From Pyxidicoccus sp. MSG2 (GTDB taxonomy: Bacteria > Myxococcota > Myxococcia > Myxococcales > Myxococcaceae): 64,000 nt of DNA. Made by a program: the position numbers and the translations under genes. The stretch lies in the NCBI RefSeq assembly GCF_026626705.1, contig NZ_JAPNKC010000001.1, positions 10,440,001 to 10,504,000 on the forward strand, read 5' to 3'. A model generated the notes under the pieces. It saw only the letters and a program-made list of their open reading frames with translations. It was not told the DNA's origin and did no database searches. Below, piece by piece: positions 20,340 to 39,015 of the stretch (within the stretch, counting starts at the first letter, position 1; the number at the start of each line of letters is the position of its first letter).

Positions 20340-23300
20340 GTGTCCCCCTGCGCACCCTCCGTGCGTGCTGAGCAGTCGCCTTTCTCACAACTTGAGGCAG
20401 GACGACGATCTTTGCGTACAATTCCGCCCGCTTTGTCCGAGCCCCGCCACACGTTGCTGTTCGTCGATGACGAGGCCGACGTCCTGGACATCCTCACGCG
20501 GATGTTCCAGCGCCGGTATCGCGTCCTGACCGCGCCCAATGGCGCAGCGGCGCTCGACATCCTGCGTCGTGAAACGGTGGACGTGCTCATCACGGACCAG
20601 CGGATGCCGGAGATGTCGGGCATCGAGCTGGTGGCGACGGTGCGCGCGGAGGGCTTCGACGTCACCGCGCTGCTGCTCACCGGGTACACGGACCCGGAGG
20701 ACATCATCGCGGCCATCAACCGCGGCCAGGTGTACCGGTACATCACCAAGCCGTGGGACGTGAACGACCTGGTCATCACCGTGAAGAACGCGGTGGAGTT
20801 CACGCAGTTGCGGCGCGACAAGGAGCGGCTCATCCGCCAGCTCCACCAGCGCGTGGAGGCCCTCTTCGTCCTCTACGAGGTGAGCCGCGCCTCCGCGAAC
20901 GACCCGGCCAGCTACGACAACATCATCGACCGCGTGCTCATCGCCGTGGCGCGGGTGCTGCCGTACGACTGCGGCGCGGCGCTCATCGCCCCGGACTCGT
21001 CGGGCAGCGTCACGCTGCGGCTGCGCTGCCACGGCACGGTGGGGGAGCAGGCGCTGCTGGGCGTGAAGGAGTCCATGCTCGGCGCGTACCGCAAGAGCAG
21101 CGGCCTGCTGCTGCCGGAGGACCGCGTCATCACCCGCGTGGCCGGCACCACCACGAAGGACGCCGAGGCCACCACCGTCTACCCCAGCCAGCTCACCGTG
21201 AATCTGGTGGCCGGCGGGCGTCCGGTGGGCATGCTGTCGCTGTTCAGCCAGAAGCCGGACGCCTTCACCGAGGACGACGGCGTGCTGCTGGACGTGCTCG
21301 CCAACCAGACGGCGGACGCCATCCAGTCCCTGCGCTCGGCGGAGGAGGAAGCCCGCCACCGCATGGAGCGGATGGTGGAGTCCATGGCGGACGGCGTGGT
21401 CCTCACCGACGAGAAGAACGACATCGTGGTGATGAACCCCGCCGCGCGCCGCCTGCTCCAGGCGGAGGACGACACGGAGGCCCACACCACGCGGATGATG
21501 GAGGAGCGGCTGGGCTTCCAGCCCTTCCACCTGGTGCGCGGCTGGGAGTACAGCGGCAACCAGGTGCTGCGCGAGGAGGTGAAGCTCTTCGACCGCCACG
21601 TGCAGGTGACTGTCACGCCGGTGAGCGACGCGCGCGGCACGCTGCGCGGGGTGTGCGTGGTGCTGCGCGACATCACCGAGCAGAAGAGCCTGGAGGAGCG
21701 CAAGGACGAGTTCGTCTCCATGGTGAGCCACGAGCTGCGCACGCCGCTCACGTCCATGTCCGGCGCGCTGGACCTGGTGCTCAACTTCATGGCCGGCGAC
21801 ATCAACGAGCGGCAGCGCCGCTACCTGTCGCTGGCGAAGGACTCCACCGAAAAGCTCAACTCCATCGTCGACGACCTGCTCGACCTGTCGAAGTTCGCCA
21901 AGGGTCGGCTGCAGATGAACTTCGAGGTGGCGTACCTCGACGAGGTGATTCAGCGGGTGGTGGAGAAGTACCAGCCGGCCTTCGGCGAGAAGCGCATCCT
22001 GGTGAAGTCCATTCTTCCGCGGCACCCCCTGCGGGCGATGGCGGACCCCAACCGGTTGAACCAGGTCCTCAACAACCTGCTCAACAACGCGGTGAAGTTC
22101 ACCCCGGAGGGCGGCGACGTGCGGGTGGAGCTGCACGCCACCTCCAGCCTGCCGGGCTACGTGGTGATTTCCTGCTGGAACAGCGGAGACCCCATCGCCG
22201 AGGAGAGCCTGGAGCGCATCTTCGACCGCTTCGAGCAGGCGCGCACCAAGGCCAACCGCACCGTGCGCGGCACCGGTCTGGGCCTGGCCATCTGCCGCAA
22301 CATCGTGGAGGCCCACGGCGGCCGCGTCTGGTGCGAGCCCTGCGCGGACGGCGTGCGCTTCATGGCGGTGCTGCCCACCGAGCCGCCCCCCGAGCTGCGA
22401 GGCGATGACGGCGCGGAGAGCGTGGCGGTGCAGCCGCGCCGCAAGGAGAGCCGGGGCCGGGTGCTGGTCATCGAGGGCGAGCCCGAGGTGGGCTACATCG
22501 CCAAGGCCCTGATGATGGGGCGCGGCTACGACGTGCGGCTGGCCTTCAATGCCGAGGAGGGCCTGGCCTCCGCGCGCGCCTACCACCCGGACATGCTGAT
22601 CGTCTCCGTGCGGTTGCCGGACGTGGACGGGCTGCGGCTGGCGGAAATCCTCCGGCACGACCCGGAGACGCGCCGCGCGCCGCTGCTGGTGACGTCCGCC
22701 TTCGACGAGCGGCAGCGCGCCTTCCGCGCCGGGGCGGACGCCTTCCTGGTGCGCCCGCTGGCGTCGGACAAGCTGCTGGCCACGGTGGACTCGCTGGTGC
22801 GCGGCCGCTCGGGCCCCGCGCACGGGCGCGTGCTGGTGGTGGACGACGACGCGAAGATTGCCGCCATCTGCCGCGAGGTGCTGGAGAACATCGGCTTCGA
22901 CGTGGCCACCGCGGGCTCCATCGAAGAGGGACGCCGCTCCCTGCGCGAGCGCCGGCCGGACGTTGTCCTGCTGGACGTGACGCTGCCGGACGGTGACGGC
23001 TTCGTCTTCCTGGAGGAGATCAAGGCCGAGCGCGCCAGCGGCCACATCTCCGTCATCTTCATCTCCGCCCGCGCGGAGACGTCCTCCAAGGTGCGCGCCC
23101 TCAAGCTGGGCGGCGACGACTACCTCACCAAGCCCTTCGACGCGCTGGAGCTGGGTGCGCGCGTGGAGAGCGTGATGCGGCGCAAGGAGCAGGAGCTGTC
23201 CGCGTCGCCCACCACGCAGCTGCCGGGCTCCACCGCGATTGAGCGCGAGGTCCAGCGGCGGCTGGTGGCGCGGCGGCCGTTCGCCTTCTGCTACCTCGAC

Positions 23301-23758
23301 CTGGACAACCTCAAGGCCTACAACGACTACTACGGCTTCGCGAAGGCGGACGGTGTCGTGCGCCAGACGGGCGACCTGATGCGCGAAATCTTCGCGCAGG
23401 ACGGCGCGCCCGGGGACTTCCTGGGCCACGTGGCCGGTGACGACTTCGTGTTCATCACCTCCACGGAGTCGGTGGACCGCATCTGCCAGAAGGCGATCGA
23501 GACCTTCGACCGCATCATCCCGCTCTACTACGACCGGCAGGACCGGGAGCGCGGGCACATCGAGGCGGAGGACCGCTTCGGGGAGAAGCGTCACTTCCCC
23601 ATCATGAGCGTGTCCGTGGTGGCGGTGATGACGGACGGCTCGCAGGACCACGCGGAGCTGGCGCGGCGCGCGGCGGACATGAAGAAGCGGGCGAAGGCGA
23701 TTGCCGGCTCCGTCTTCCTGCGCAGCGACAGGGAGCGGGTGGTACGCTCCGTGGCCGG

Positions 23759-23762
<4 letters not shown>
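20340..23762 (+). CDS. Hybrid histidine kinase REC-GAF-PAS-HisKA-HATPase-REC-REC-GGDEF(degenerate)
   Basis: A large cytoplasmic signalling protein (up to 1140 residues, no membrane segment). Domains in order: receiver 1 (about 37-150; [22 protein letters not shown]), GAF (about 175-335), PAS (about 340-450), HisKA ([14 protein letters not shown] near 460), HATPase ([28 protein letters not shown]), receiver 2 (about 707-820), receiver 3 (about 830-945; [24 protein letters not shown]) and a GGDEF-like domain (about 960-1135). Receiver 2 has Ser in place of the phospho-acceptor Asp (IVSVRLPD), and the GGDEF signature reads AGDDF. Both look degenerate. GTG 20340 is the longest start, but it overlaps a LexA half-site and lacks a ribosome site; TTG at 20412 or 20433 may be the true start. 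It overlaps the next kinase gene by ATGA. Confidence 0.9.
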
Positions 23763-25643: not shown

Positions 25644-26633
25644 ATGGCCCAACCCCGCCGCCAGACGCCCTTCCTCGTCGGCCTCGTGCTGATTCTCGCG
25701 GCATTGCCGGTGGGGTGGTTCGTCTTCCTGCGCCAGCCGCCGCCTCCTCCTCCGCGGCCCGCGCCTCCGCCCGTCGCGGTGCCGGCTCCGACCGAGAAGA
25801 AGCCCCTGGAGCTGGAGTTCACCGAGGTGTCCGGCACCGTGGAGGTGCAGCACCCGGACGGCACCTGGCGCCCGGCGACGGTGGGCGCGGCCCTGCGCCG
25901 CAACGAGAAGGTGCGCACCCAGGACGGCTCGTACGCCATGCTCATCGGCGGCGAGGCCGTGGAAGTGCGCATGGACCCCGGCACGGAAATCTCCGTGGAG
26001 GCGCTGACGGAGTCCGTGTCCCGCATCCTCCTCGGCAAGGGTATGGCGACGGCCGTCGTGCGTCCCGGCCAGCGCCACACCTTCGAGGTGAAGGCGGCCA
26101 ACGCGGACGCGGTGGCCACCCTCGAGCAGAGCGGTGCCTTCACCATGAGCAACAACGGCCAGGGCACCGTGGCGGTGGGCACGCGCGAGGGTGAGGTGAC
26201 GCTGCTCGGGCAGGGCAAGGTCGTCATCGTCCGCGCGGGTCAGCAGGCCGTCATCCGCCCCGGCCAGGCGCCGTCCGAGCCCGCGACGGTGCCCAGCAGC
26301 CTCCTGCTCAAGGTGGATTGGCCGGTGGAGCGCACGCGCCGCGAGCGCGAACTGCTCGTGCGTGGACAGACGGTCCCCGGCAGCCGCGTGGAGGTGGACG
26401 GTGTCACGGTGGCGCCGGACGCCCAGGGCCACTTCGAGCGCAAGGTGGTGCTGCGCGAGGGCCGCAACACCGTGGACGTCCGCGCCGTCGGAGTGGGGGC
26501 TGTCGGAGGGGTGGACGGCGGAGTGAAGCGTATTGAACAAAGGGACAAGCAGGACGTGGTCGTCGACACCACGCCGCCCCCTTTGAAGACGGATCCGGAC
26601 ATCTGGAATCAAGCAAACAACGATTCCCGGTAG
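25644..26633 (+). CDS. FecR-domain protein with N-terminal membrane anchor and Ig-like C terminus
   Basis: A 329-residue protein with one N-terminal TM (FLVGLVLILAALPVGWFVFL) and a Pro-rich spacer. It has a FecR-like domain (TEVSGTVEVQHPDGTWRPAT, ALRRNEKVRTQDGSYAMLIG, VRMDPGTEISVEAL) and a C-terminal Ig-like segment (LLVRGQTVPGSRVEVDGVTV, GHFERKVVLREGRNTVDVRA) of the type found in glucodextranase B-like domains. FecR domains in myxobacteria occur in envelope proteins without any link to iron. It ends 240 bases before the riboswitch-controlled operon. Its Ig-like segment resembles one in the large barrel protein at 30514 (VTVAGVAAEVDAQGAW), which suggests a functional link. Confidence 0.82.
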   Translation: MAQPRRQTPFLVGLVLILAALPVGWFVFLRQPPPPPPRPAPPPVAVPAPTEKKPLELEFTEVSGTVEVQHPDGTWRPATVGAALRRNEKVRTQDGSYAMLIGGEAVEVRMDPGTEISVEALTESVSRILLGKGMATAVVRPGQRHTFEVKAANADAVATLEQSGAFTMSNNGQGTVAVGTREGEVTLLGQGKVVIVRAGQQAVIRPGQAPSEPATVPSSLLLKVDWPVERTRRERELLVRGQTVPGSRVEVDGVTVAPDAQGHFERKVVLREGRNTVDVRAVGVGAVGGVDGGVKRIEQRDKQDVVVDTTPPPLKTDPDIWNQANNDSR

Positions 26634-26662
26634 AAGACCGTGCGGGCAGACGGCCGATCGCC

Positions 26663-26692
26663 TTGACCCCTGGTCCAAGGGCTCCCTAGACT
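26663..26692 (+). promoter_or_regulatory. Sigma70-like promoter upstream of the riboswitch
   Basis: TTGACC (26663-26668) and TAGACT (26687-26692) are separated by 18 bases, a good match to the -35/-10 arrangement. The predicted transcript start near 26699-26700 falls just before the aptamer, as expected for a riboswitch leader. No other promoter-like pair is as clear in this gap. Confidence 0.55.
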
Positions 26693-26700
26693 CCTCCGCA

Positions 26701-26806
26701 GTCGTTCCTGTTCAAGGGCAATCCTGGACGAAAGTCCTGGTGCGCAAAGCCGCGGGGCCTGAAGTCCGGCCGGCCGTGACCGCCGTGGGAAGCCAGTACC
26801 GGATAT
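26701..26806 (+). ncRNA. GEMM-class cyclic-dinucleotide riboswitch aptamer (c-di-GMP-I type)
   Basis: The conserved landmarks of the GEMM-I aptamer occur in order and with appropriate spacing. They are AAGGGCAA (26714-26721); a stem GGAC-GAAA-GTCC with a GAAA tetraloop (26726-26737); the hallmark CGCAAAGCC (26743-26751); GGCCTGAAG (26756-26764), like the tetraloop-receptor strand; and GAAGCCAGTACCGG (26789-26802), like the UAGCC-GGGUUACCG end. The GGG of GGGCAA keeps the G that in Vc2-type aptamers contacts c-di-GMP; cGAMP-sensing relatives have A there. The closing P1 helix is weak by eye. The predicted target is the operon starting at 26873, 67 bases downstream, whose ribosome site GGGAGG is at 26858-26863. 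Confidence 0.75.
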
Positions 26807-26872
26807 GCCGGGTCCCGTGTGCCTTGTGCAGGCTTGGGTCGTCGTCTCGGTCTCTCCGGGAGGTCGTTTCCG

Positions 26873-28576
26873 ATGCTGCGGACACTGGCCCTGGTTTCCT
26901 CGCTGCTCCCCGCGCTGTCTCCCGCCTTCGCGCAGATGCAGGCGCGCCCCATCACCGGCACGGCGAAGGTCGTCAACGGTGGACCGGGAGACCAGACGGA
27001 CCCCCACGTCAGCGGCCCGCTGGTCGCCTATACGAACGAGGTCCGCGGCACGAGCGAGATTCGCTACCACGACCTGGTGACGGAGCACGACGCGGCCATC
27101 CCCAATGGGGGCGCCTTCGACTTCGTGTCGGACGTGAGCGGCGACACGGTGGTGTTCACCCGCGTCGGCGCCTCCAGCTCCATCTACACCTTCGACGTGG
27201 TGGCCCCGGGCTCCACGCCGGTGGAGCTGGCGCCCGAGCAGGGCAGCAGCCGGCGCGCGGCGGTGATTGGCGGCCGCACGGTGGCGTGGCAGGACTTCGG
27301 CTTCACTGGCAACACGCTGCAGCCGGAGATTGCCGCGTTCGACCTGGACACCGGCACACTCACCCGGCTCACCGAGGATGCGCTGCAGGACCGCACGCCG
27401 GCGGTGGCGCCCGATGGAAAGACGGTGGTCTGGGCCAAGTGCAACACGCAGAGCCAGGCGTGCGACATCTGGGAGGCGCGGTGGAACGGCGCGGGCTTCA
27501 CCACGCAGGCACTCACCGGCACCGAGGGTGAGGAGTCGCAGCCGGACACCAACGGCGAGGTGGTGGTCTACGCCAGCACGCGCATGGTGGACGGTGTCTC
27601 GGACCGGGACATCTACTGGAAGCCGGTGGGCGGCGGCGTCGAGCAACGGCTGGCACTGCCAGGGCTGGACGCCAATCCGAGCATCAGCGGCTCGCTGGTG
27701 GCCTTCGAGCGCAGGGCGCCGGAGAAGAACGACTTCGACATCGCGCTCTACGACTTGAAGTCGCAGACCCTCTACGTGCTGACGAGCGGGCCGGAGAACG
27801 AGAACCTCAACGACTTGAGCATGAGCGGGGACGGCACGGTGCGCGTGGTGTGGACGGCGCCGGCCAACGGCGACTTCAACGTGCACTCCTTCACCTTCCA
27901 GCTTCCGTCGGAGCGCCCGTGCCGGCCTTTCGAGGAGGTGGACCGGCTCCCCATCGACGTCTGCTACACGCCGGACGACTGGCCGCTGCTGACCACGCTG
28001 GAGGTGACGCGAACCACCGGTGCCCCCAACGGCGCCGAGCTTGATTTCGCCGGAAAGGGCGTGGGCGTCATCTGTGTGGACAACGGCTTCAGCGGCCTGC
28101 CGGCCACCTCCGGCTGGGTGTGGCTCAATGGCCACGTGAAGGTGTCACCCGACCAGTTCCAGAAAGACGTGTCCCTCATCGCCAAGGGCATGGTGATGGC
28201 CACGGACGGCCACAACACGCTGACCGCTCAGATCTCCGGAAAGCCCGGAACTACGTTCCGCGTCCGCGTCCATGGAATGCCTCCGGTCTGCGAGGACGAG
28301 GACGAGGCGTCCGAGCCCCTGGCGCCCGACGCGCAGGTCATCCCCGGGCAGCTTGTTTCGCCCATGTCGCTCGAGGCCAAGGCGGTGTCACCCCTGACCT
28401 TTGTGCCCGACGGTGCGGTGCGTGGCGCGGGGCCGATTCCCGGTGGCTGCAGCACGGGTGGCGGCTCGCTGGCGCTGATGGGGATGATGCTCACGGCGGT
28501 GTGGCTGCTGGGCCCCCGGCGCGCGTTCGTGGCGATGCGACGGAAGGAACTTCGGCGCGGAGGCCGTGCCCTGTAG
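26873..28576 (+). CDS. Secreted beta-propeller protein with MYXO-CTERM tail
   Basis: First gene of the riboswitch-controlled unit; 567 residues. The signal peptide MLRTLALVSSLLPALSPAFA is followed by repeated TolB/WD-like strands (DPHVSGPLVAYTNEVRGTSE, DRTPAVAPDGKTVVWAK, ANPSISGSLVAFERR), giving a six- to eight-bladed propeller to about residue 340. A beta-rich region with Cys pairs follows. The C terminus has PGGCSTGGG, a hydrophobic stretch and an Arg-rich end, the MYXO-CTERM pattern that directs Cys-dependent sorting to the cell surface in myxobacteria. ATG 26873 is chosen for the signal peptide and the GGGAGG site. The next gene begins 12 bases after the stop. Confidence 0.85.
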   Translation: MLRTLALVSSLLPALSPAFAQMQARPITGTAKVVNGGPGDQTDPHVSGPLVAYTNEVRGTSEIRYHDLVTEHDAAIPNGGAFDFVSDVSGDTVVFTRVGASSSIYTFDVVAPGSTPVELAPEQGSSRRAAVIGGRTVAWQDFGFTGNTLQPEIAAFDLDTGTLTRLTEDALQDRTPAVAPDGKTVVWAKCNTQSQACDIWEARWNGAGFTTQALTGTEGEESQPDTNGEVVVYASTRMVDGVSDRDIYWKPVGGGVEQRLALPGLDANPSISGSLVAFERRAPEKNDFDIALYDLKSQTLYVLTSGPENENLNDLSMSGDGTVRVVWTAPANGDFNVHSFTFQLPSERPCRPFEEVDRLPIDVCYTPDDWPLLTTLEVTRTTGAPNGAELDFAGKGVGVICVDNGFSGLPATSGWVWLNGHVKVSPDQFQKDVSLIAKGMVMATDGHNTLTAQISGKPGTTFRVRVHGMPPVCEDEDEASEPLAPDAQVIPGQLVSPMSLEAKAVSPLTFVPDGAVRGAGPIPGGCSTGGGSLALMGMMLTAVWLLGPRRAFVAMRRKELRRGGRAL

Positions 28577-28588: not shown

Positions 28589-30517
28589 CTGAACCGGTTC
28601 CTCCACGTCGCCCTGCTACTGCTGTGCGCCCCGGCCTGGGCGGACACGCTCGAGCTCCTCGGGCCTTTGTCCGCCGTGGCGCCGGATGGATTCCCCGTGG
28701 CGCTGGTACGGAGGGACGCGTCGGGCGCGCCGGTTCCGTTGGTCGCGCCGTCGGTGGTGGCGGAGGGCGCGGAGTTGCGCGACGGCCCCGAGCAACCGCC
28801 GCTGCGCACCTTCGTGGTGGTGCCGCAGCCGGGCGCGCGCGAGGTGGTGGTGCGCGCCCGCGTGGACGGACTGGAGGCGCAGGCGCGCTACGGGGTGGGC
28901 CCGCCGGCCACCGAGGTGCGGCTGGCGCTGGAGCCCGCCGCGCCGGTGAAGGGCAAGGACAAGGAAGCGGTGCTCACCGTGCGCATGCAGCGCCCGGACG
29001 GCACCGCGGATGACAGCGGCGCGCCGCCGGTGGTGCGCGCGAGCATCGGCCGCGTGGAGGGACTGGAGCGGACGGGGCCGGGCACCTACCGCGCCCGCTA
29101 CGTGCTGCCGGACACGCGCTACCCGGAGGTGGCCATCCTGGTGGCGTTCTCCGCGTGGCCCCACCCGCAGTCCATCCAGGGCGCCTACGGCCGCGTGCTG
29201 GTGCCGCTCGCCGCGGCGGTGACGCTGCCGGGCACCACGGAGCCGGACGCGCAGATTTCCATCGACATCGCGGGCACGTCCTTCGGCCCGGTGGCGGCGG
29301 GGTCGGATGGTCGCTTCCGCCTGCCCATCATCGTCCCGCCGGGGCACCGCATGGGCGAGGGCCGCGTCGTGGACCGGGTGGGCAACGTGCGGCGGATGCC
29401 CATCGACCTGATGCTGCCGCCCACCGACGGGCTGGCGTGCGTGCTGCAACCGCAGCGGCTGCCGGCGGACGGTGCGTCGCAGGCGCGGCTGGTGTGCGCG
29501 ACGAGCGACCCGCTCGGCCAGCCGGTGGCGGACGCGCGGGTGACGGCCCAGGCGCGGCACGGAACCTTGAGCGGCCCGGTGCGCGCGGAAGGTGGCCTGC
29601 TGGAGTGGCGCTACACCTCGCCCCGCGCGCTGGCCGAGGACGAGCGCATCACCGCCGCGTGGCCCCAGCGCGGCGCCGGCTCGCGCGAGGAGCTGGCGCT
29701 GCAACTGGTGCAGGGTCCGGTGGCGGAGGTGGGGCTGTCCGTGTCGGAGGCGCTGGTGCACCACGGTGCGAGCGCGGAAGTGCGGGTGACGGCGCGCGAT
29801 GCGTTTGGCCGCCCGCGGCCTGGAGCGGTGGTGGAGCCGCGGGCTCCGGTGGGCCGCTTCTCGCCGCCAGTGGAGTCGCCGCCGGGCACCTTCTCCAGCA
29901 CGTGGACGCCGCCTCTGTCGGGCGACGCGGCGGAGGTGGCCGTGGGCGCACGCGCCTGGGGGCCCGCGGGGAGCGAGCCCGCGCGCATCTCCGTGTGGAG
30001 GGACGGCGGCGCGCTCTACGCGGGCGTATCGGACCTGGCGGGACTGCCCGTGCCGGCGCAACCGCTGCGCGTGGACGGCCAGCTGGTGGTGACGGGCGCG
30101 GACGGCACGGTGCGCCTGGGGCCGCCGCGGACCGGGACGTTGCAGGTGTCGCACGGGGTGTGGCCGGGACTGGCGCGCACCGTCTACGTGCTCGGCGCGG
30201 AGGGGCCGGTGTATCCGCTGGAATCCCCGCTCGTGCCGCCCGCCGTGTCGCAGACCGTGCGGCTGGCGCCCGAGGTCCCCGTCAATGTGCGGCTGAAGGT
30301 GGAGGGCACCCGTGTGACGTACTGGGTGGAGGATTCGCGCGGGCAGGTCCTGGAGGGCCGTCAGGTGCACGTGGCGCTGTCCGGCGGTGAGCGCGTGGCG
30401 GAAGAGGTCCACGACGGGCGCACCTCCTTCACCGTGCGGGGGGCCCCGGGCCCCATCGGTGTCTCCGTGGCGGATGTGAGCACGGGCGTGACGGCACTGG
30501 CCGAGGTGCGGCCATGA
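28589..30517 (+). CDS. Exported Ig-like multidomain protein, probable CTG start
   Basis: A 642-residue protein built of repeated Ig-like beta domains (for example VRARVDGLEAQARYGVGPPA, VVRASIGRVEGLERTGPGTY, VSEALVHHGASAEVRVTARD, VNVRLKVEGTRVTYWVEDSR), as in invasin/BIG-type or carboxypeptidase-regulatory-like proteins. No ATG, GTG or TTG gives an N-terminal signal. The frame directly after the preceding stop encodes LNRFLHVALLLLCAPAWA, a clear signal peptide, beginning with CTG at 28589 and preceded by GGAG at 28581-28584. The first conventional start, TTG 28667, would remove the export signal. It overlaps the barrel gene by ATGA. A periplasmic or surface partner of the barrel is inferred. 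Confidence 0.8.
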   Translation: MNRFLHVALLLLCAPAWADTLELLGPLSAVAPDGFPVALVRRDASGAPVPLVAPSVVAEGAELRDGPEQPPLRTFVVVPQPGAREVVVRARVDGLEAQARYGVGPPATEVRLALEPAAPVKGKDKEAVLTVRMQRPDGTADDSGAPPVVRASIGRVEGLERTGPGTYRARYVLPDTRYPEVAILVAFSAWPHPQSIQGAYGRVLVPLAAAVTLPGTTEPDAQISIDIAGTSFGPVAAGSDGRFRLPIIVPPGHRMGEGRVVDRVGNVRRMPIDLMLPPTDGLACVLQPQRLPADGASQARLVCATSDPLGQPVADARVTAQARHGTLSGPVRAEGGLLEWRYTSPRALAEDERITAAWPQRGAGSREELALQLVQGPVAEVGLSVSEALVHHGASAEVRVTARDAFGRPRPGAVVEPRAPVGRFSPPVESPPGTFSSTWTPPLSGDAAEVAVGARAWGPAGSEPARISVWRDGGALYAGVSDLAGLPVPAQPLRVDGQLVVTGADGTVRLGPPRTGTLQVSHGVWPGLARTVYVLGAEGPVYPLESPLVPPAVSQTVRLAPEVPVNVRLKVEGTRVTYWVEDSRGQVLEGRQVHVALSGGERVAEEVHDGRTSFTVRGAPGPIGVSVADVSTGVTALAEVRP

Positions 30518-33500
30518 GGCATGGGCTGATGCTGCTTGCGGCCGCGCTGCTCCTGCCCCTCGTGTCGGCGGCGCAGGGACTGTCGTCGGACACGGCGTCG
30601 CTGGCGTCCACCATCGCCGGCCGGGTGTGCCAGGACGTGAACGGCGACGGGCGCTGTGGCACCGACGAGCCGGGCCTGCCGGACGTGCGGCTGGTGCTCA
30701 CCACCGGCCGCGAGGTGCGCACGGATGCGCATGGGCGCTACCACGTCAACGGCGTGGACTCGCGGATGCCGGATGCGACGGGTGGGCTGCACCTGCGTCC
30801 GGGCCGCCAGCGGCTGAAGGTGGACCCGCGCTCGCTGCCGGCCGCCAGCCGGGTGCGTCCGGAGGCCGCCACGGTGGAGGTGCCGTGGGGTGCCGCCCTC
30901 CTCCAGGACTTCGCCGTGCGCAACGTGGCCACGCAGGCGCCGCCGCTGGTGCTCTCCTACGCGGCCGCGCCGCCAGTGGCCGAATTGGTGGCGGGCGAGG
31001 GCGCCGTCCGCTTCCGCGTGGCCGGCAAGGCGGCGCCGGGCGACCGCGTCACCGTGGCGGGCGTGGCGGCGGAGGTGGACGCGCAGGGCGCGTGGAGCGC
31101 GCTCGTCCCTCTGGTGGTGGGGGCGAACACGCTGGCGATTACCGCCACCGCTCCCGACGGCGCGGTGCGCCTCTTCCGCCAGCGCGTGGACGTGGTGCGC
31201 CGCGATGACGGATGGCTGGTGGCGCCACGTGCCGTGGAGCCCGCGGGCTCGCTCCAGCTTCCGGCCGGACGCGATGAGCAGGTGGCCAGCGGCACCACCC
31301 GGCTGCGCCTGGAGGCCCCGGAAGGCACCCGCGTGCGCACGCCGAAGGGCGAACAGGTCGTGGGGCCGGACGGCAGCGTGGAGGTGCTGGTGACGCTGGA
31401 GCCGGGCCACAACGCGGTGCCGCTCCACCTGGAGGTGCCGGGCGAGCCGCCACGCGACGAGACGCTGGAGATTGCCGCCGCCGCGAGGCCCTTCGCGGTG
31501 GGCCTCCTGGACGTGGAGGCCACCTGGGCCCCCGCGGACGGAGACGTGCAGCTGCGTGGCCGCGGCTCCGCCCACGCCGAGTTGCGGCTGGCCGACGTGG
31601 AGCTCGTGGGCGAGCTGGACCTGCGCGACACCGACGGCCGCACGCTGAACGGTGCCAGCCTGCCGGACTGGCTGCGCCCGCGCCTGCCCGAGCGCTTCGA
31701 GCGCGTGCCGGACATCGACCTCACGCCCGTCGAGTGGGGCGACGACTCGGTGGCGCTGACGCCGAATGCTCCAGAGGGACGCCTGCGGCTGGAGGCCCGG
31801 CATGAGGACTACGGCCGCGCCGGCCTGGGCACGTACCGGGCACTGCTGCAGGACGGTGAGGTGGGTCGCTACCACCGGCCGCTCTTCGGCCCGTACGCGG
31901 AGCTGAAGACGAAGTTGCTCCAGGACTCGACGGCGCGCGCGGGCGTGGACGTGTTCGGCGGGAGCCTCTCGGACCCGAGCCGCCTGCTGACGGCGGTGCC
32001 CGCGCACGAGGAGCTGCGCGCCACCGGCGGCAGCCTCTACTACCTGGGCGCGGTGTCGATATCGGAGGGCTCCGAGCTGGTGCGCCTGGAGGTGCGCGAC
32101 GGCGTCACCGGCCTGCCGCTGGCGGAGCGCCACCTGGTGCGCGGGCGCGACTACGACATCGACTACTTCTCCGGCCGCATCCTACTGGCGCGGCCGCTGT
32201 CCTTCATCGCGGGCGAGTCCTGGCTGCGCACGGACTCGCCCACCGAGTCACCCGAGCCGGTGCTGGTGGTGGACTACGCGGCGCTGCGGCCGGCGGACGC
32301 GCAGGACACGGCTGGCGGCGAGCTGTGGGGCGAGTGGCGCGGCGCGCGCCTGGGGCTCGCGGCGGTGCGCGAGGGACGCGAGGGCAAGCCCTACACGCTG
32401 TACACCGGCCGGGCGCGGGCGACGGTCGGCGCGTACACGCTGACGGCGGAGGTGGCCTCCAGCCGGGGCACGGCGGTGGAGTCCGGCCGCTTCGGCGTGT
32501 CGGACGACGGCGGCCTCAGCTTCCTCCGGCCCTCAGCGGGAGTCGGCACGGAGGGTGGGGCGCTGGGCCTGCGGGTGCGCGGGCCGGGGCCGCTGGGCGG
32601 CGGAGGCTCGGTGGACGCGGCCTTCCGCCTGCGCGCGAAGGGCTACTCGGACGGTGCGCACACGGAAGCGGCCCTGTTCCGGCAGACCTCGCTGCGCCTG
32701 CGCCAGCCCGTGGCCCGTCACCTGGAGCTGACGCTGCTGGCGGATGAGCGGCGCTCGGCCGACCCTCGCGAGCCCTTCGCGGACACGCCCTTCACCGCGC
32801 GGACGGTGGGCGCGGCCGTGGGCTGGGAGGAGGTGCTCTGGAGCGCGCGGCTGGAGGTGCGTGACTCGCGGCTGGGCGCGGCGGAGGTGGCGGGCGTGGG
32901 GCCGGCCCTCTTCGGAGGCCGGACCTCCGCGGGCATCGCGGGCTCCCTGCGCCTCTTCGGGCGCATGGAGCTGAGCGCGGCGCACCGGCAGATGCTCGCG
33001 CTGCACGGCGAGGGGCCGGGGCGGATGGACGACACCTTCACCTCGGCGGGCGTGGACGTGGATGTGGCGAAGGACACCCGCGTGGGCGTGCACGGCGGCT
33101 GGGGCCCCGAACTGGGCCCGCGCGCGTGGGCCAACGTGGAGTCCCGGAGCGGGCAGGAGGTGTACTACGGCGGCTACTCGGTGGATGTGGACGGGCCGGA
33201 CTTCGGCGCGGGCCGCACGCTGACGGGCGCGCGCACCGAGCTGCCGGACAGCGGCACCGCGCTCTTCGTCGAGGACGTGGGCGCGCATGACGCCACCTCC
33301 GTGCGGCTGGCTCGCGCGGTGGGACTCCAGCAGCAGGTGACGGGCGGCTTCAGCGTGGGCGCGCGGTACGAGCGCGGCGTGCGCAGCCTGCTCGACGTGG
33401 ACACCGCGCTGAAGCGCGACGCGGCCGGTGTTTTCGGCCAGCTCGTGCTGGAGCGCCTCCGCGTGGAGGGCCGGGTGGAGCTGCGCCGGGAGGAGGGCAC

Positions 33501-34122
33501 GCCGGAGCGCGGGGACCCGACGCCGGTGGACCGGTTGCAGACGGTGGTTGCGCTGGCCGCACAGGCGGAGCTGCGCGAGGACGTGACGGCCTCGGGCCGC
33601 GTGGATTTTGCCCGCACCGTGGATGTGGAGGCGCTGGAGGCGAGGTTCGTCGAGGGCTACGCGGCGGTTGCCTGGCGGCCCGGGCCGTGGCTGGTGGTGG
33701 CGCGCTACGGCCTCACCCGCGAGCTGCTGCCCGGCGCACGCGCCGCATTTGGCGAGCGGGCGTTGCAGCTCTTCTCACTGTTGCCGGCCGTCAAGCTGGG
33801 AGACCGGCTCTCCGTGGCGGCGGGCCTGCACGCGGGCCGCTCCAGCCTCGAGGACTCCGTGCGCTGGGTGTGGACCGGCACGGTGCGCCCCGCGGTGCGG
33901 GTGGTGGGAGGACTGGAAGTAGGCGCGGAGCTCGCACGCAGGACGGCATCCCCGGAAGGTGAGCGATTGACGGCGGTGAGGGCGGAAGTGGCATACCGGG
34001 TCGATGAGCGGCTGCGATTGGCTGCCGGGTACACACTCCTGGGCTTCAGCGGCTTGGGGCTGACGGCCGACTCGACGGAGAATCAGGATCGGCTCTACCT
34101 GCGAGCCGAAGTGGCCTACTAG
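30514..34122 (+). CDS. Large outer-membrane beta-barrel protein with SdrD-B-like and Ig-like domains
   Basis: A 1202-residue protein. The signal peptide is MRHGLMLLAAALLLPLVSAA. Residues about 33-75 (IAGRVCQDVNGDGRCGTDEP, then GLPDVRLVLTTGREVRTDAHGRYHV) resemble a Ca-binding SdrD_B/Cna-B domain with a DVNGDG loop. An Ig-like domain (PGDRVTVAGVAAEVDAQGAW) follows at about 175-230. From about residue 330 to the end the protein is dominated by long amphipathic beta strands with alternating charged and aromatic residues (AELRLADVELVGELDLRD, RVEGRVELRREEGTPERG, LAAGYTLLGFSGLGL, LYLRAEVAY), and a C-terminal Tyr suits an outer-membrane barrel. A translocon, adhesin anchor or channel role is possible. 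Its start overlaps the upstream stop. Confidence 0.82.
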   Translation: MRHGLMLLAAALLLPLVSAAQGLSSDTASLASTIAGRVCQDVNGDGRCGTDEPGLPDVRLVLTTGREVRTDAHGRYHVNGVDSRMPDATGGLHLRPGRQRLKVDPRSLPAASRVRPEAATVEVPWGAALLQDFAVRNVATQAPPLVLSYAAAPPVAELVAGEGAVRFRVAGKAAPGDRVTVAGVAAEVDAQGAWSALVPLVVGANTLAITATAPDGAVRLFRQRVDVVRRDDGWLVAPRAVEPAGSLQLPAGRDEQVASGTTRLRLEAPEGTRVRTPKGEQVVGPDGSVEVLVTLEPGHNAVPLHLEVPGEPPRDETLEIAAAARPFAVGLLDVEATWAPADGDVQLRGRGSAHAELRLADVELVGELDLRDTDGRTLNGASLPDWLRPRLPERFERVPDIDLTPVEWGDDSVALTPNAPEGRLRLEARHEDYGRAGLGTYRALLQDGEVGRYHRPLFGPYAELKTKLLQDSTARAGVDVFGGSLSDPSRLLTAVPAHEELRATGGSLYYLGAVSISEGSELVRLEVRDGVTGLPLAERHLVRGRDYDIDYFSGRILLARPLSFIAGESWLRTDSPTESPEPVLVVDYAALRPADAQDTAGGELWGEWRGARLGLAAVREGREGKPYTLYTGRARATVGAYTLTAEVASSRGTAVESGRFGVSDDGGLSFLRPSAGVGTEGGALGLRVRGPGPLGGGGSVDAAFRLRAKGYSDGAHTEAALFRQTSLRLRQPVARHLELTLLADERRSADPREPFADTPFTARTVGAAVGWEEVLWSARLEVRDSRLGAAEVAGVGPALFGGRTSAGIAGSLRLFGRMELSAAHRQMLALHGEGPGRMDDTFTSAGVDVDVAKDTRVGVHGGWGPELGPRAWANVESRSGQEVYYGGYSVDVDGPDFGAGRTLTGARTELPDSGTALFVEDVGAHDATSVRLARAVGLQQQVTGGFSVGARYERGVRSLLDVDTALKRDAAGVFGQLVLERLRVEGRVELRREEGTPERGDPTPVDRLQTVVALAAQAELREDVTASGRVDFARTVDVEALEARFVEGYAAVAWRPGPWLVVARYGLTRELLPGARAAFGERALQLFSLLPAVKLGDRLSVAAGLHAGRSSLEDSVRWVWTGTVRPAVRVVGGLEVGAELARRTASPEGERLTAVRAEVAYRVDERLRLAAGYTLLGFSGLGLTADSTENQDRLYLRAEVAY

Positions 34123-34132: not shown

Positions 34133-37100
34133 GTGCGCGCCGCCATCGTCTTCATCTTCTGCATGGGTATGGCCACGGCGGCATCCGCCGGGGTGGAGAT
34201 CGCCGACGTCGCGGGCTTCCCCCGGTACGTGGATGTCTGGCGGCCCGGCGTCTACTCGGTGTCCTCGACCCAGAAGGTGGAACTCTGGAACAACGGCGCC
34301 GTGGACGCGGAGTTCTTCGAAGCGGACGTGTTCGGCACCTTCCTGTCCCCCTCCGGCTGCTTCGCCGCCGTGAAGCTCGAAGGCACGCTGGTCAGCAACG
34401 GCAACTGCCTGCCGTCCGGGACCATCATCCCTCCAGGCGAGAGCATTGCACCCCAGGTACGGCGAGTGCGCTTCACGCCCTCCGGGACTGGCTATGCCAC
34501 GGTGAAGCCCAACACCACCGACCTCCAGTTGCTGACCACGCTCCCGGCGAACACGGGCGGGCCGGAATGGAACACGCTGACCATCCCCGGCGGGTCATTC
34601 AGCCCCACGAGCGTGATGGGGGTGACAGATACGGATGGCGGTGTCCCCCACGTTCTCTTCTACGTCGTCACGACGACGACGGATTTCCTCTGGTATCGGG
34701 GGCGTGACTTCGTGGCCGAGGTCGACCTCCCCGCCAACCTGCTGCAGGAGAAGCCCACGACGGTGGACCTCATTGCCACGGAAGGGCCCGACCCCGTCGC
34801 CATCTTCGGGAGCGACGCGGGCCTCTTCCGGGGACAGCTCACGCCGCCAACAGGGCCCGGACACCTCGCCCCGTTCCTCCCCGTGACGATTCTCGACGGC
34901 GGGACCGCGGTGCGCATCGTCTCGGTGGACGTGAACACCGGCCAGGGCAGCGCACGCGGCGAGGGCTACGGCGTCGCGGTGGGCCTGGGAGACAGCGACG
35001 AGTTCGTGCTGCTGGGCGCCGTGCCCACCGACAGCGCGGCCGATGCGGGCACGCTCTGGCGCGTCAACCCCAAGGTGGACACTTCGTCGCTGCCGAAACC
35101 GCTGGAAGTGGCCTGCGCGGGCTCCGCCTTCTGTGTCATCAGCCTGGACAGTCCGGGCGAGGGCTCGGGCAACCTCCGCCTCTACACCAACGAGGCGGCG
35201 CCCGGCTTCGTGTCGGGGACGCAGTCGTTGGAAATCTACGAGGCGGGGGGCGCCGTGCAGAGGCGGATCACCGCGACGGATGATGACGGAGACGCGGTGC
35301 GTGTCTCGGTGGATTCAGCGGCGGCGGCGGGCCTGTTCAACGTGCGCGCTGGGTTGCAGCCGGACACGCTGGACCTGGAAGTCACGCCGCTAGGAGACGT
35401 CTGCAAGACGGAGACGCGGGAGCTGGATGTCTTCGCCTCGGATGGCCTCGCGTCCCACGACCAGTCCGTGAAGGTGCGCGTCACCCTCAACAACGTGCGA
35501 GGCCCCGAGGTGCCCGGCGTGACGCCCACGAATGCCGCGGTCGTCGCGGGCGGAGCGCCGCGAGTCTTCACGGCCACGCCGCCCGGAAGCGGGCCGTGCG
35601 CCACGGTGGGCTACCGCTGGACGTCGACGTCGACGACGCAGCCGGAGCTCGCCGTGTCGCCGGACGGGACGGCCACCTTCACGCCGCCGGACACCCTGTG
35701 CGTCCAACAGGGCGAGCGGTACACGTACACCGTGCAGGGCCTGGACGAGGGCGGACTGGCGTCCCCTCTCACGAGCTTCTCGGTGGACGTGGCGCCCTGG
35801 GGACCTCCGCTGGCGCCCTTCGGGCCGGGCGCGGTGCGGGCGCTGGCCTCGGGACCGGGCTCGGGAACCGACGTGACGGCCGAGGCTCCCCTGCATACGT
35901 GTACCGGCACGCCGGGCCTGCCTGGAGTGCAGACGGTGTGGCGGCTGAGCGACTCCAGTGCGGGAGTGCCCCCGGCCTTCACGGTGAGAGCCGCCGACGG
36001 CGGCACCGTCTCGCTGGAGTCCCCGGTGGAGAGCCCGCGGCTCCGGGTGGAGGCCGTCGCGTGCACGCGCGCGAGCCTGTCGTTCACCGCCTTCAACCGC
36101 ATCCAGACCGACGCCGGTGGCGTGCAGGACGGCCCCGAGGCGACGGTGCGGGTGGACGCGGTGCCGGCGGTAGAGGACATCACCGCCGCCCAGCTCCAGC
36201 TGACGGCGGTGCCCGCGGAGCAGGGACAGGTGGACATCCAGCTGGGCACGTCCGTGCTGTGCCCGGCCGAGTACGCGCTGAAGGCACAGATGTCCCTACG
36301 AAACCTGGACGGCGGGACGCTGGCCGGCGCGGTGGTGGACGTCCCGGGAAGCTGGAGGCCGCCGCTGCCGGACGACTGCTCGGCTCGGGACTACATCGTC
36401 CATGGTCAGCTCTTCGACGAAAGCACCGGCACCCGGCTCAATGGCGGCACGGCGCAGACGCTGGTGTCCGCGCAGGCGCTTCCGGCCGCGCTGGGCGCGC
36501 TGGAGGGCGAGGCGCTGGTGGCCCACTGTGGTGAGCGCGCGACGGCCACGCTGACGCAGACGATTCCCTCCAACGCATGCCAGGCGGTGGACATCACCTG
36601 GACGCAGGTGGGCGGGCCCGCGCTCGCGGAGGCGGAGCTGGGCGGCGCGCAGGTCACCGTGGCCACGCGCGACACGGGCCTGGAGGGACTGGTGGGCGAG
36701 TCCGTCGTGCTGAGCGTCACCGCGGACGCGGGCGGCGGCAACAGCACGACGACGCAGCACGTGGTGCCCATCACCACGGCGCCCTTCGTGGACGTGACGC
36801 ACGAGACGGAGTCGCAGATTGGCGCGGAGAAGTCCCTGGTGGGCGTGGTGGTGCAGCTGCGCAACGACTCCGGGTGCCAGGTGGGAAGCCTGCGCCACGT
36901 CGAGCACGTGGACGGCGTGGACTGGGTGCCCGGCAGCGTGAAGGTGGACGGAAGGACGGTGGCGGAGCAGGCGGTGGAGGGCGGCTTCGTGGTGGACGGC
37001 GTGACGCTGCCCGCTGGTGGCACCAGCGCGCTCACCTACGTGGCGCGTCCCCGGCTGCTGGCCTCGCCGCGTTTCGGTGGAGAGGTGTTCCTCAATGGCG

Positions 37101-37237
37101 TGCAGGTCTCCGGCCCGCTTCCGCCCGTGCCGTCTTCCGGGTGCGGGTGCTCGAGCGGAGACGCGGGCTCGGCCCTGCTCGGACTGCTGGCGCTGGCGCG
37201 GCTGCTGCGCCGCCGTCGCGACGGCGCGGCGGGCTAG
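34133..37237 (+). CDS. Large secreted protein with canonical MYXO-CTERM sorting tail
   Basis: A 1034-residue protein that ends the riboswitch-controlled unit. Signal peptide (AAIVFIFCMGMATAASA). The N-terminal region has VDVWRPGVYSVSSTQKVELW and propeller-like strands. A middle part carries cadherin-like or Ig-like units (EIYEAGGAVQRRITATDDDG, ELDVFASDGLASHDQSVKVR) and many paired Cys. The C terminus reads SSGCGCSSGDAGSALLGLL followed by LARLLRRRRD, a textbook MYXO-CTERM signal. The start is GTG 34133 with AGGAGCC upstream, 10 bases after the barrel gene. It converges on the minus-strand receiver gene with a 4-base overlap of stops. Confidence 0.86.
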   Translation: MRAAIVFIFCMGMATAASAGVEIADVAGFPRYVDVWRPGVYSVSSTQKVELWNNGAVDAEFFEADVFGTFLSPSGCFAAVKLEGTLVSNGNCLPSGTIIPPGESIAPQVRRVRFTPSGTGYATVKPNTTDLQLLTTLPANTGGPEWNTLTIPGGSFSPTSVMGVTDTDGGVPHVLFYVVTTTTDFLWYRGRDFVAEVDLPANLLQEKPTTVDLIATEGPDPVAIFGSDAGLFRGQLTPPTGPGHLAPFLPVTILDGGTAVRIVSVDVNTGQGSARGEGYGVAVGLGDSDEFVLLGAVPTDSAADAGTLWRVNPKVDTSSLPKPLEVACAGSAFCVISLDSPGEGSGNLRLYTNEAAPGFVSGTQSLEIYEAGGAVQRRITATDDDGDAVRVSVDSAAAAGLFNVRAGLQPDTLDLEVTPLGDVCKTETRELDVFASDGLASHDQSVKVRVTLNNVRGPEVPGVTPTNAAVVAGGAPRVFTATPPGSGPCATVGYRWTSTSTTQPELAVSPDGTATFTPPDTLCVQQGERYTYTVQGLDEGGLASPLTSFSVDVAPWGPPLAPFGPGAVRALASGPGSGTDVTAEAPLHTCTGTPGLPGVQTVWRLSDSSAGVPPAFTVRAADGGTVSLESPVESPRLRVEAVACTRASLSFTAFNRIQTDAGGVQDGPEATVRVDAVPAVEDITAAQLQLTAVPAEQGQVDIQLGTSVLCPAEYALKAQMSLRNLDGGTLAGAVVDVPGSWRPPLPDDCSARDYIVHGQLFDESTGTRLNGGTAQTLVSAQALPAALGALEGEALVAHCGERATATLTQTIPSNACQAVDITWTQVGGPALAEAELGGAQVTVATRDTGLEGLVGESVVLSVTADAGGGNSTTTQHVVPITTAPFVDVTHETESQIGAEKSLVGVVVQLRNDSGCQVGSLRHVEHVDGVDWVPGSVKVDGRTVAEQAVEGGFVVDGVTLPAGGTSALTYVARPRLLASPRFGGEVFLNGVQVSGPLPPVPSSGCGCSSGDAGSALLGLLALARLLRRRRDGAAG

Positions 37238-38601
37238 AGGCCGAAGGTGATGCGGTGGCGGCGGCTCGGTGCCTCGGGCCGCTCCTCCAGCACGCCGAGC
37301 AATTCCAGCCCGCGCAGCGTGGCAAGGGCCTGGCGCTCGGACAAATCGGTGAGGGCCAGCAGGTCCTCCACCGTCTTGCTGCCATCCGCGTACGCGAGCA
37401 GCAGCGCCTGTGGCCCCTGAAGCTTCAATTCGTGCAGGCCGTACGGCGGGTCCGCGGTGGGGAACAGCCGGCGCGAGGGCGGCATGCGCTGGCGCAGGGC
37501 CACCAGCGTCTCCGTCTTCTCCACGCCCTCCAGCACCAGGTCGCCGGGGAAGACGGACAGCTTCACCAGGTCCGCGCGCTGGGGCCGCATGGCGCTGAAG
37601 CCATACTGGCCCTCCGTCCACGTGAAGGTGGACCAGAGGATTTCCTTCACCTGCTCCTCCAGCAACTGCCGGCGCCGCGCGGCGTCCATGAGGCCCAGGC
37701 GGAGCATGGCCTCGCCGGTGCGCAGGCCGTGCTCCTTCGCGTACGCGGCCACCTCCACCAGGCGGGACTCGGGCAGCACGCCCCGGCGGACGCAGAAGCG
37801 GCCGAAGCGCTCCTGCGCCAGGTTGGAGGCGGCGTACACGATGCGGCCGGACTCGAAGTAGACGACCTTGAGGACGGAGCCCTGCTTGAGCTTCAGCTCC
37901 CCGTGGTGGCGCGCCTCGTAGTACGCGTTGAGCAGCCGCGCGACGGAGGTGTCCTTGAGCTCTCCCGCGAGCGTCCACTCGGGCAGCGAGCCGCGCGGGG
38001 CGGCGGACGGGGACGCGGCGTTGCTCCACACCTTCTCGCGCCGCTGGAAGGGCAGGGGGAGGGCATGGTGCCCGTCGTCGGGCACGGGCAGCGCCTCCGT
38101 CTCCTCCACGGAATGCAGGGGGGCGGAGGTGTCGCCGGAGTCGGGTACGACCTCCTCCAGCACGATGAGGTCCTCGTCGTCGAGCAATTCGTCCGGGGGC
38201 GCGGCCTCCGGCACGGGCGGAGGGGCACGGGGGGCGGGGGCGATGCCGCCCGCCTCCTCCAGCGAGTCCATGACGGCGTTCAGCTCGAAGGGCTTGGCGA
38301 AGAAGGCGCGCGCGCCGTGGACCTGGACGGCCTCCTGGGCGAAGCGGTCCCCCTTGTAGACGCCGCTGACGGCGATGGCGGGGATGCCGTGGGCGCGCAG
38401 GGCGCTCAGCACCTCGCTGCCGCGGATGTCGGGCAGGAGCAGGTCCACGAGGGCGACGTCCCATTTCGAGCCGGGGCCGAGCGCCTCCAGGGCCGCCTCG
38501 CCGGTGTACGCCGCCCGCGCCTCGTGACCGCGGCTCTGGGCCGCGGCGACGATGAGGGAGGCCAACTCGTGGTTGTCTTCGACGATGAGCAGTCGCGCCA
38601 T
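37234..38601 (-). CDS. Response regulator with DUF4388 (PATAN) domain
   Basis: A 455-residue cytoplasmic protein. The receiver domain (about 1-120) has VEDN, the phospho-acceptor Asp in ALVDLLLPDIRG, and FFAKPFE. An acidic Pro-rich linker (about 125-200) follows. A DUF4388/PATAN domain begins at SLPEWTLAGELKDTSVARLL and continues through GELKLKQGSVLKVVYFESGR; PATAN domains in myxobacteria and cyanobacteria are linked to signalling in motility or development. The C-terminal helical part ends with a winged-helix-like module (TVEDLLALTDLSERQALATL). The start at 38601 gives a compact receiver N terminus (MARLLIVEDN). It is divergent from the VOC gene across 27 bases. Confidence 0.88.
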   Translation of the reverse strand: MARLLIVEDNHELASLIVAAAQSRGHEARAAYTGEAALEALGPGSKWDVALVDLLLPDIRGSEVLSALRAHGIPAIAVSGVYKGDRFAQEAVQVHGARAFFAKPFELNAVMDSLEEAGGIAPAPRAPPPVPEAAPPDELLDDEDLIVLEEVVPDSGDTSAPLHSVEETEALPVPDDGHHALPLPFQRREKVWSNAASPSAAPRGSLPEWTLAGELKDTSVARLLNAYYEARHHGELKLKQGSVLKVVYFESGRIVYAASNLAQERFGRFCVRRGVLPESRLVEVAAYAKEHGLRTGEAMLRLGLMDAARRRQLLEEQVKEILWSTFTWTEGQYGFSAMRPQRADLVKLSVFPGDLVLEGVEKTETLVALRQRMPPSRRLFPTADPPYGLHELKLQGPQALLLAYADGSKTVEDLLALTDLSERQALATLRGLELLGVLEERPEAPSRRHRITFGL

Positions 38602-38628
38602 GGGCGCGCAGACCATAGCATCCGCGCC

Positions 38629-39015
38629 ATGGACGTTCAGGGCTTCCACCATGTTGCAATCCAGGCGAAGGACCTCGAGCGGGTGACGGCCTTCTACCGG
38701 GACCTGCTCGGCTTCCCGGAACTGACCCGGCACCTGAGGCCGGACGGCTCCCTGAGGAGCATCTGGGTGGGCGTGCCAGGAGGCGGCTTCCTGGCCATCG
38801 AGGCGGCGGGCTCGGACCCGGAGTCCCTCCCGTTCCGCCACGAGCGGCCGGGCCTGCTGCTGTTGGCCTTCCGGATTCCGAAGGCGGCCCGGGCTGGGGT
38901 GGTGGAGACCTTCGCCCGGGCGGGGGTGCCGCTGGAGCACGAGACGCGCTGGTCCGTGTACGTAAGGGACCCGGAGGGCAACCGGGTGGCGCTCAGCCAC
39001 CACCCGGAGGACTAG
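38629..39015 (+). CDS. VOC-family (glyoxalase/dioxygenase fold) protein
   Basis: A 128-residue two-module vicinal-oxygen-chelate protein: FHHVAIQAKDLERVTAFYRD, LLGFPELTRHL, LLAFRIPKAARAGVVETFAR and YVRDPEGNRVALSHHPED. The first His of HHVAI and an acidic residue in the last strand (DPEGNRVAL) are in metal-ligand positions typical of glyoxalase I-like proteins. The substrate cannot be told from sequence. ATG 38629 is divergent from the receiver gene; the MshEN gene follows after 66 bases. Confidence 0.88.
   Translation: MDVQGFHHVAIQAKDLERVTAFYRDLLGFPELTRHLRPDGSLRSIWVGVPGGGFLAIEAAGSDPESLPFRHERPGLLLLAFRIPKAARAGVVETFARAGVPLEHETRWSVYVRDPEGNRVALSHHPED

Follow-up and report, generated by a model that had tools for sequence, protein, structure and literature searches.

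The GEMM-I family of riboswitches (Rfam RF01051, clan CL00126, the c-di-GMP-I class) folds into helices in the order P1-P2-P3, with a GAAA-capped P2, an AAA/GAC internal loop and a GCAAAG core, and lies in 5′ leaders ahead of envelope genes. An 11-nt tetraloop receptor in P3 is common, not universal, in this family. A second Rfam family, RF03167 (c-di-GMP-I-GGC, a name that we take to stand for G20-G47-C92), has a short P3 and a consensus G at the position of A47. According to PMC4744006, c-di-GMP is contacted in the Vc2 RNA by G20, A47 and C92, the interhelical pair is universally conserved, and Vc1 of Vibrio cholerae, which controls GbpA, is a divergent GEMM-I element with its contacts kept. 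The GEMM-Ib (3′,3′-cGAMP) riboswitches of Geobacter have the same fold with A20, and a G20A GEMM-I RNA binds cGAMP (PMC7288161).

Here we describe an element of this kind in Pyxidicoccus sp. MSG2; the window, as used below, is the whole stretch of 64,000 nucleotides that was analysed. Like RF01051 members, the element shows the P1-P2-P3 order, a GAAA-capped P2, the GCAAAG core, equivalents of G20, A47 and C92 and of the C44-G83 pair, and a position in a 5′ leader ahead of envelope genes. It differs from them in its internal loop (AAU/UGC), its RF01051 score (26.4 against 35 bits), A-C mismatches at the base of P3, a wobble-containing bulged P1, and a P3 that ends in an 8-nt loop without what we take to be the partner strand of the tetraloop receptor. 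RF03167 shares the short P3 and its model scores best in the window, but the element has A26746 where that family has its consensus G and misses its gathering score of 59, and it is not placed there. The fold is also that of GEMM-Ib, whose A20 is found in two related loci (L090, L100), whereas the window has G20. Vc1 offers the closest parallel of a divergent GEMM-I RNA with kept contacts; it has another target and lineage and its effect has been tested, whereas the window element is known here from its sequence.

Assignment of the leader to the GEMM-I family

A sequence-only reading of the window had proposed a promoter, a GEMM-I aptamer and a surface-protein operon. This arrangement is backed by orthologues that exceed the Rfam cut-off, by covariation in P2 and P3, by conserved contact positions and by linkage to g1, the first gene of the operon (Table 1). 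It is comparison that identifies the family, the fold, the contact positions, the promoter and the target operon, all as predictions from sequence. The TTGACC-N18-TAGACT promoter was recovered as one sigma-70-type match, the sole one in 26400-27000, against a mean of 0.0 in 50 shuffles. Among 27 genus sequences its -35 hexamer TTGACC is invariant in 6/6 columns and its -10 hexamer is 90% identical, the spacer being only 68% identical.

Table 1. Predicted features of the locus (window coordinates).
Feature	Position	Strand	Basis or remark
Promoter	26663..26692	+	-35 TTGACC 26663-26668, 18-nt spacer, -10 TAGACT 26687-26692
GEMM-I (c-di-GMP-I class) aptamer, P1 + P2 + P3	about 26706..26790	+	covariance models, BLASTN, covariation, conservation
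P1 5′ strand UCCUG	26706..26710	+	proposed partner CGUGGG 26784-26789, U26786 bulged
P2	26718..26745	+	GC/GC 26718-26719 with 26744-26745; internal loop AAU/UGC
P2 upper stem	26723-26729 with 26734-26740	+	GAAA loop 26730-26733
P3	26748..26781	+	26748-26759 with 26768-26771 and 26774-26781; GG bulge 26772-26773
G20 equivalent, ligand contact	G26717	+	G in 42/45 members; A in L090, L100; gap in L102
C44 equivalent	C26743	+	P2-P3 interhelical pair with G26773 (G83 equivalent); C and G in 45/45
A47 equivalent, ligand contact	A26746	+	A in 45/45 members
C92 equivalent, ligand contact	C26783	+	C in 45/45 members
Rest of leader, presumed expression platform	26791..26872	+	ribosome-binding site GGAGG 26859-26863, then g1 ATG 26873
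FecR-domain gene	25644..26633	+	ends about 30 nt 5′ of promoter; many orthologous loci also have it 5′ of the aptamer
g1, secreted TolB-like beta-propeller protein, first operon gene	26873..28576	+	TIGR04275 51.1 bits (cut-off 85), TolB 40.6 (cut-off 343)
g2, Ig-like protein	28667..30517	+	Invasin_D3 and Big_1 domains over cut-offs
g3, predicted outer-membrane beta-barrel	30514..34122	+	moderate-confidence model, residues 331-1202, mean pLDDT 64
g4, MYXO-CTERM protein, last operon gene as read	34133..37237	+	TIGR03901 24.6 bits, cut-off 20

An Rfam scan of the whole window at gathering thresholds reported no RNA family. With relaxed thresholds (cmscan, 501 bp) the best model was RF03167 (28.5 bits, E = 1e-4), matched over model positions 1-80 of 80. 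RF01051 scored the aptamer at 26.4 bits (E = 0.025) in a search of the whole 13.3 Mb genome, where it was the sole match at E <= 1; RF01786 (c-di-GMP-II) gave no match at E <= 1. The gathering scores are 59 for RF03167 and 35 for RF01051, the latter a curation threshold, and the window reaches neither. The search with the c-di-GMP-I model that the sequence-only reading had proposed therefore did return a match at E = 0.025, and not the empty result that would have spoken against the element, but the match stays below the curated cut-off. The low score accompanies changes near the base of P3, where the 3′ strand reads GACC in the window and GGUU in the five within-genus orthologues over the cut-off.

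Homology to RF01051 members over the cut-off was found by BLASTN, by shared gene neighbours and with R1, a covariance model built without P1 from 26 BLASTN-found sequences on a structure supplied by hand. R1 scores the window element at 113.7 bits, the sole strong match; the next reaches 16.6 bits (E = 1.28).

Fold of the aptamer

GGGCAA (26716-26721), the GAAA-capped stem (26723-26740) and CGCAAAGCC (26743-26751), named earlier as aptamer landmarks, are present and form part of the GEMM-I fold. Two further landmarks were reinterpreted. CCTGAAG (26758-26764), taken for a receptor-like strand, is the top and loop of P3: the apex is an 8-nt loop, and the 3′ strand of an 11-nt tetraloop receptor is absent. 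AGCCAGTACCGG (26791-26802) sits 3′ of the aptamer and is variable in relatives; the true 3′ strand of P3 is GGCCGGCCGTGACC (26768-26781).

Pairing was evaluated in 45 aligned members (44 distinct), drawn from R1 source loci chosen by hand with near-duplicates left out, and 93.2% of their P2/P3 cells pair. Among the 44 distinct sequences, 12 of 21 pairs changed on both sides, against 6.9 in shuffles, and 70 covariation cells were counted against 16.4, a number reached in 0/500 shuffles; the alignment was fitted to the structure of R1 and so favours that structure. Both helices contributed, with changes on both sides in 6/7 pairs of the P2 upper stem (94% of cells paired) and in 6/12 pairs of P3 (91.7%). 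When the 3′ strand was slid by 1-3 columns, pairing went down to 26-42%, with at most 12 double-change cells. When 26 genus-level and near sequences were aligned with MAFFT and scored with P1 included in a contiguous register, the outcome pointed in the same sense, more weakly: five double-change pairs were reached in 15/500 shuffles, and 13 double-change cells stood against 4.2 in shuffles (0/500).

P1 had been named as the main doubt, and it is indeed weak: of its five pairs two are U-G, two are C-G and one is G-C, and one U is bulged out. Its best register joins G26710-C26784, U26709-G26785, C26708-G26787, C26707-G26788 and U26706-G26789 around the bulged U26786. With the bulge optional, this canonical register gave 4.43 of 5 pairs over 23 hand-picked divergent rows, compared with 4.16 for swapped strands (10/1000 swaps as good). 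P1 is nearly invariant within the genus, and the divergent relatives lend some support to the predicted helix. A contiguous register (UCCUGU with GUGGGA) was dropped, 507/1000 swaps being as good.

The energy-model result counts against the GEMM fold and was weighed less than covariation. Folded alone as a single sequence, the aptamer shows no gain in stability over shuffles (z +0.82), and the structure of lowest energy differs from the GEMM fold; locking that fold in the full leader costs 13.6-22.3 kcal/mol relative to the free ensemble among 27 sequences, and 18.1 in the window. At the base of P3 the window carries two A-C mismatches. The 3′ strand there (26778-26781, columns 73-76 of alignment A1) reads GACC, GGUU, GACU, GGCU and others among lineages. 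Its partner AGCC hardly varies, so that most members of the genus have A-C mismatches there, which might be protonated A-C wobbles.

These disfavouring energies, together with the score below the curated cut-off, are what could be said for a chance resemblance, in a sequence kept for something else, for instance a small ORF or DNA binding. We regard this as hardly credible: orthologues exceed the cut-off, there are double compensatory changes around a GAAA loop that most members keep, and the collapse of pairing upon sliding of the strand, like the covariation test, already contradicts it.

Contact positions and predicted ligand

We mapped the numbering of Vc2 onto the window using position numbers, including C44-G83 for the interhelical pair, that we take to be the accepted ones. 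The three ligand contacts of GEMM-I (G20, A47, C92) and the interhelical pair are all present. Because position 20 is a G, c-di-GMP is the predicted ligand; if the element is a riboswitch, this is probably what it binds, rather than 3′,3′-cGAMP.

A GEMM riboswitch with cGAMP, or both dinucleotides, as physiological ligand appears unlikely and is nonetheless a live rival. Among 18 GGDEF matches in the genome itself, 11 are readable, and two of these (L221, L227) carry GHxxGS, which we take to be a Hypr-type serine motif. Since the genome encodes such GGDEFs, cGAMP is probably also present in the cell. Hypr GGDEFs have Ser in place of the canonical Asp (PMC6456294), and GacA and GacB of M. xanthus synthesize cGAMP in vitro (PMC8844925). 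Two orthologues of the element 5′ of g1 (L090, L100) have A20. Against this stands the c-di-GMP-type G20 of the window and of 42/45 members; the A20 of GEMM-Ib is found in L090 and L100 only, of 45, and the window has G26717.

The two A20 elements lie 5′ of g1 at L090:1495-1581 (-) and L100:5526-5613 (-), in G057 and G038, genomes of one family. Both genomes also encode GGDEF proteins with GHxxGS (L216, L225; L220). The G057 assembly is fragmented and 6% contaminated.

The predicted target operon and its surroundings

The operon had been described as encoding MYXO-CTERM and outer-membrane proteins. This holds: the MYXO-CTERM signal of g4 is over its cut-off, g3 is a predicted barrel, and g2 carries Invasin_D3 and Big_1 domains, so that the label surface operon for g1-g4 is supported. 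The assignment of g1 as a TolB-like propeller comes from matches below curated cut-offs, and no Pfam family was found in it at E <= 0.01. The true start of g2 is probably a little 5′ of the listed TTG, in an open frame of 646 aa. The g3 model consists almost entirely of beta structure; past model residue 250 it has about 33 strands, each 9-17 residues long. Its best Foldseek matches are mostly outer-membrane barrels (LptD, BtuB, FepA; best E 8.4e-6, low TM). The ORF that follows (37237-39015, +) and the MshEN gene behind it were considered as operon members and rejected; the ORF gave only a C-terminal glyoxalase domain (Pfam), and the end of the operon was therefore set at g4.

g1 lies downstream of the aptamer in 46/57 loci (42/45 R1 loci and 4/12 further RF01051 loci), some of them in other families of the phylum. 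The distance from aptamer to g1 is 24-122 nt, and 64-99 nt in 42/46, with g1 starts at orthologous loci extrapolated from tblastn. The 11/57 loci without g1 are L084, L105 and L106 (family f5), L062-L066, L069, L081 and L085.

Good GEMM matches without g1 downstream are seen in family f5 (L105, L106, L084). The next ORF in L105 and L106 contains GGICGCCG and RRGFLKAGG stretches, and from these two loci the GEMM element may also serve other targets.

Two neighbouring genes deserve mention in their own right. In the MshEN protein (39040-40416, +), five spacer residues separate RLGELLVKEGLVTPEGIEEALEAQ from a second RLG motif minus its final Q, an arrangement that matches the c-di-GMP-binding motif of PMC5013675. 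A short distance 5′ of the riboswitch candidate, 20340-23762 (+) encodes a hybrid histidine kinase with three receiver domains, GAF and PAS, ending in a C-terminal degenerate GGDEF (AGDDF).

Distribution among relatives

BLASTN with 26640-26875 against 61 genomes (its own and 60 relatives) found one copy each in 33/61, including 27/27 genus genomes examined; the closest leader outside the genome itself is that of G022 (98% identity). Over the 27 genus genomes the aptamer has 93.9% mean pairwise identity with 69/85 columns invariant, compared with 59% identity in the stretch upstream and 77% in the downstream leader. R1 matched 63/145 order genomes at E <= 0.1 and scored at least 40 bits in 53, 27 of them outside the model-building set.

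RF01051 matched 65/195 phylum genomes at E <= 0.1 and exceeded its gathering score in 27/195. In 18 of these 27 the match over the cut-off lies just 5′ of g1 (G003, G008, G009, G013, G014, G033, G036, G087, G089, G092, G094, G096, G127, G129, G138, G147, G149, G150); the other nine are G046, G068, G071, G145, G153, G157, G163, G190 and G193. Within the genus the cut-off is passed by only 5/27 genomes (G003, G008, G009, G013, G014). The element is also present in a record of M. xanthus AM003 (L167). In G023 the RF01051 score is 26.3 bits, below the cut-off, and a score of about this size would explain why cut-off-based annotation misses the M. xanthus element.

Some matches stand apart. In G036 (genus g11 of the window's family) RF01051 matches six times at E <= 0.1, against once in each of the family's other matching genomes. 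GEMM elements with the AAU/UGC loop and R1 scores of 43-44 bits occur in L174, L172 and L180, in records labelled Planctomycetota, Acidimicrobiia and Ardenticatenaceae. L190 (BNCN01000007.1) contains the Myxococcus leader and operon under the label Comamonas sp. KCTC 72670, and the record is probably mislabelled.

Loss and decay of the element

Matches to g2 at E <= 1e-10 were found in 123/195 phylum genomes; a large share of these matches are weak or incomplete. We inspected 20 regions 5′ of g2, in genomes picked mainly for the absence of R1 and RF01051 matches. Seven (L140-L142, L149, L150, L153, L154) gave no g1 match, and R1 run on them with filters off gave nothing above 13.5 bits. Eight others (L143-L148, L151, L152) have g1 and no intact aptamer; weak g1 matches were found in L155, L156 and L159 and none in L157 and L158. 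In these regions, then, loss of g1 went together with loss of the aptamer (7/7), and the converse does not hold. Relatives that keep g1 with the aptamer absent or decayed count against the riboswitch reading.

In L143 and L144 (genus g32) the TTGACC promoter is kept 5′ of g1, together with an apparent decayed aptamer. L144 aligns over 47 nt to the window leader, with the GCAAAG core altered (2/300 shuffles as good), and L143 over 20 nt (5/300). L145 resembles the window leader no more than by chance (46/300 shuffles), and L146-L148, L151 and L152 show no similarity to it. R1 scores of 16.9 and 16.0 bits for L143 and L144 are hardly above an unrelated match in L155 at 16.0, so the reading of remnants rests on the alignments; L143 and L144 are possible fossil riboswitches.

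The decayed copies in this related genus also bear on whether ligand control persists in the window. A GEMM-derived structured leader that has lost it, and that is kept for example for mRNA stability or as a protein site, would be in keeping with them, with the sub-threshold score and the A-C mismatches in P3, and with the weak P1 and poor stability in energy models. We consider it improbable: the contacts are invariant or nearly so over deep divergence, whereas the decayed L144 copy has an altered GCAAAG core. The leader RNA 5′ of the surface operon is, in our judgement, very probably a functional GEMM riboswitch, be its ligand c-di-GMP or cGAMP and be it an ON or an OFF switch.

The leader and the predicted mode of control

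The leader is about 175 nt long, its start being placed from the promoter. RNA polymerase would begin at the conserved promoter just 5′ of the aptamer, and the nascent leader would fold P2 and P3, which would dock. c-di-GMP would then be bound at the junction of P2/P3 with P1 via G26717, A26746 and C26783. Binding would close the otherwise weak P1 and capture the GUGGG strand (26785-26789), which would alter folding of the next 80 nt around the AUG of g1 and its ribosome-binding site, and in this way set expression of the g1-g4 surface operon. A terminator scan found no intrinsic terminator in the leader, and for this reason control is guessed to be translational rather than terminator-based.

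The direction of such control was approached with energy models. Mean openness of the AUG in 27 leaders is 0.73 with the aptamer locked versus 0.46 with P1 blocked; in the window the values are 0.63 and 0.64, and openness of the ribosome site barely changes (0.21 versus 0.24). Unconstrained, constrained and alignment folding, a column-pair screen and duplex-swap tests of the platform revealed no convincing switch. Seven segment pairs were compared with 5000 swaps each, of which the following were as good as native: X:b 2988, b:c 4996, X:c 4999, d5:Y 1614, b:Y 14, X:Y 0 and d5:d3 0. For X:Y, which joins the P1 3′ strand and the following nucleotides with the start region, 28/400 column-permuted controls were as good, and with four narrower choices of the start region the counts were 15, 76, 27 and 23 of 200 permuted controls; the complementarity between leader and start is only suggestive.

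An ON switch, in which the ligand frees the start region, is slightly favoured and would be close to an even call. An OFF switch, in which closure of P1 lets the long downstream hairpin d5:d3 form and hide the ribosome-binding site, is possible and rather doubtful. It would agree with the d5:d3 complementarity, native over swapped in all comparisons (0/5000), and with a ribosome-binding site predicted to be mostly paired; this pairing is predicted in both states, though, and the d5:d3 test was run without a column-permutation control.

Discussion

According to PMC4877007, c-di-GMP is essential for M. xanthus development. The receptors of M. xanthus named in the literature consulted are proteins, and the word riboswitch is absent from the main text of PMC8844925; seven riboswitches are annotated in M. 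xanthus DK1050 (PMC10019317). No title on GEMM in Myxococcus was found in a literature search with thin coverage of subscription papers, which is not proof of absence. The kind of riboswitch is known, and the Myxococcus member appears to be unreported within the literature searched. No earlier cyclic-dinucleotide receptor made of nucleic acid is known to us from Myxococcus.

One reading of the distribution is that GEMM and g1 form an ancient pair in Myxococcota and that the signal to which this pair responds was changed at the locus itself, with G20 (c-di-GMP type) in most lineages, M. xanthus among them, A20 (cGAMP type) in one family, and decay or loss elsewhere. We hold it as a serious yet tentative possibility. 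If it is true, the element would be the first nucleic-acid cyclic-dinucleotide receptor in Myxococcus known to us, in organisms that apparently make both dinucleotides. The A20/G20 split at one locus offers a natural experiment in ligand switching.

The survey also indicates that Rfam cut-offs hide GEMM RNAs in this high-GC lineage, as 27/27 genus genomes carry the element and 5/27 pass RF01051. If it is a riboswitch, the leader would provide a new, testable link between c-di-GMP and the cell surface, and in M. xanthus it would name a direct c-di-GMP target, a surface-protein operon, in a genetically tractable model.
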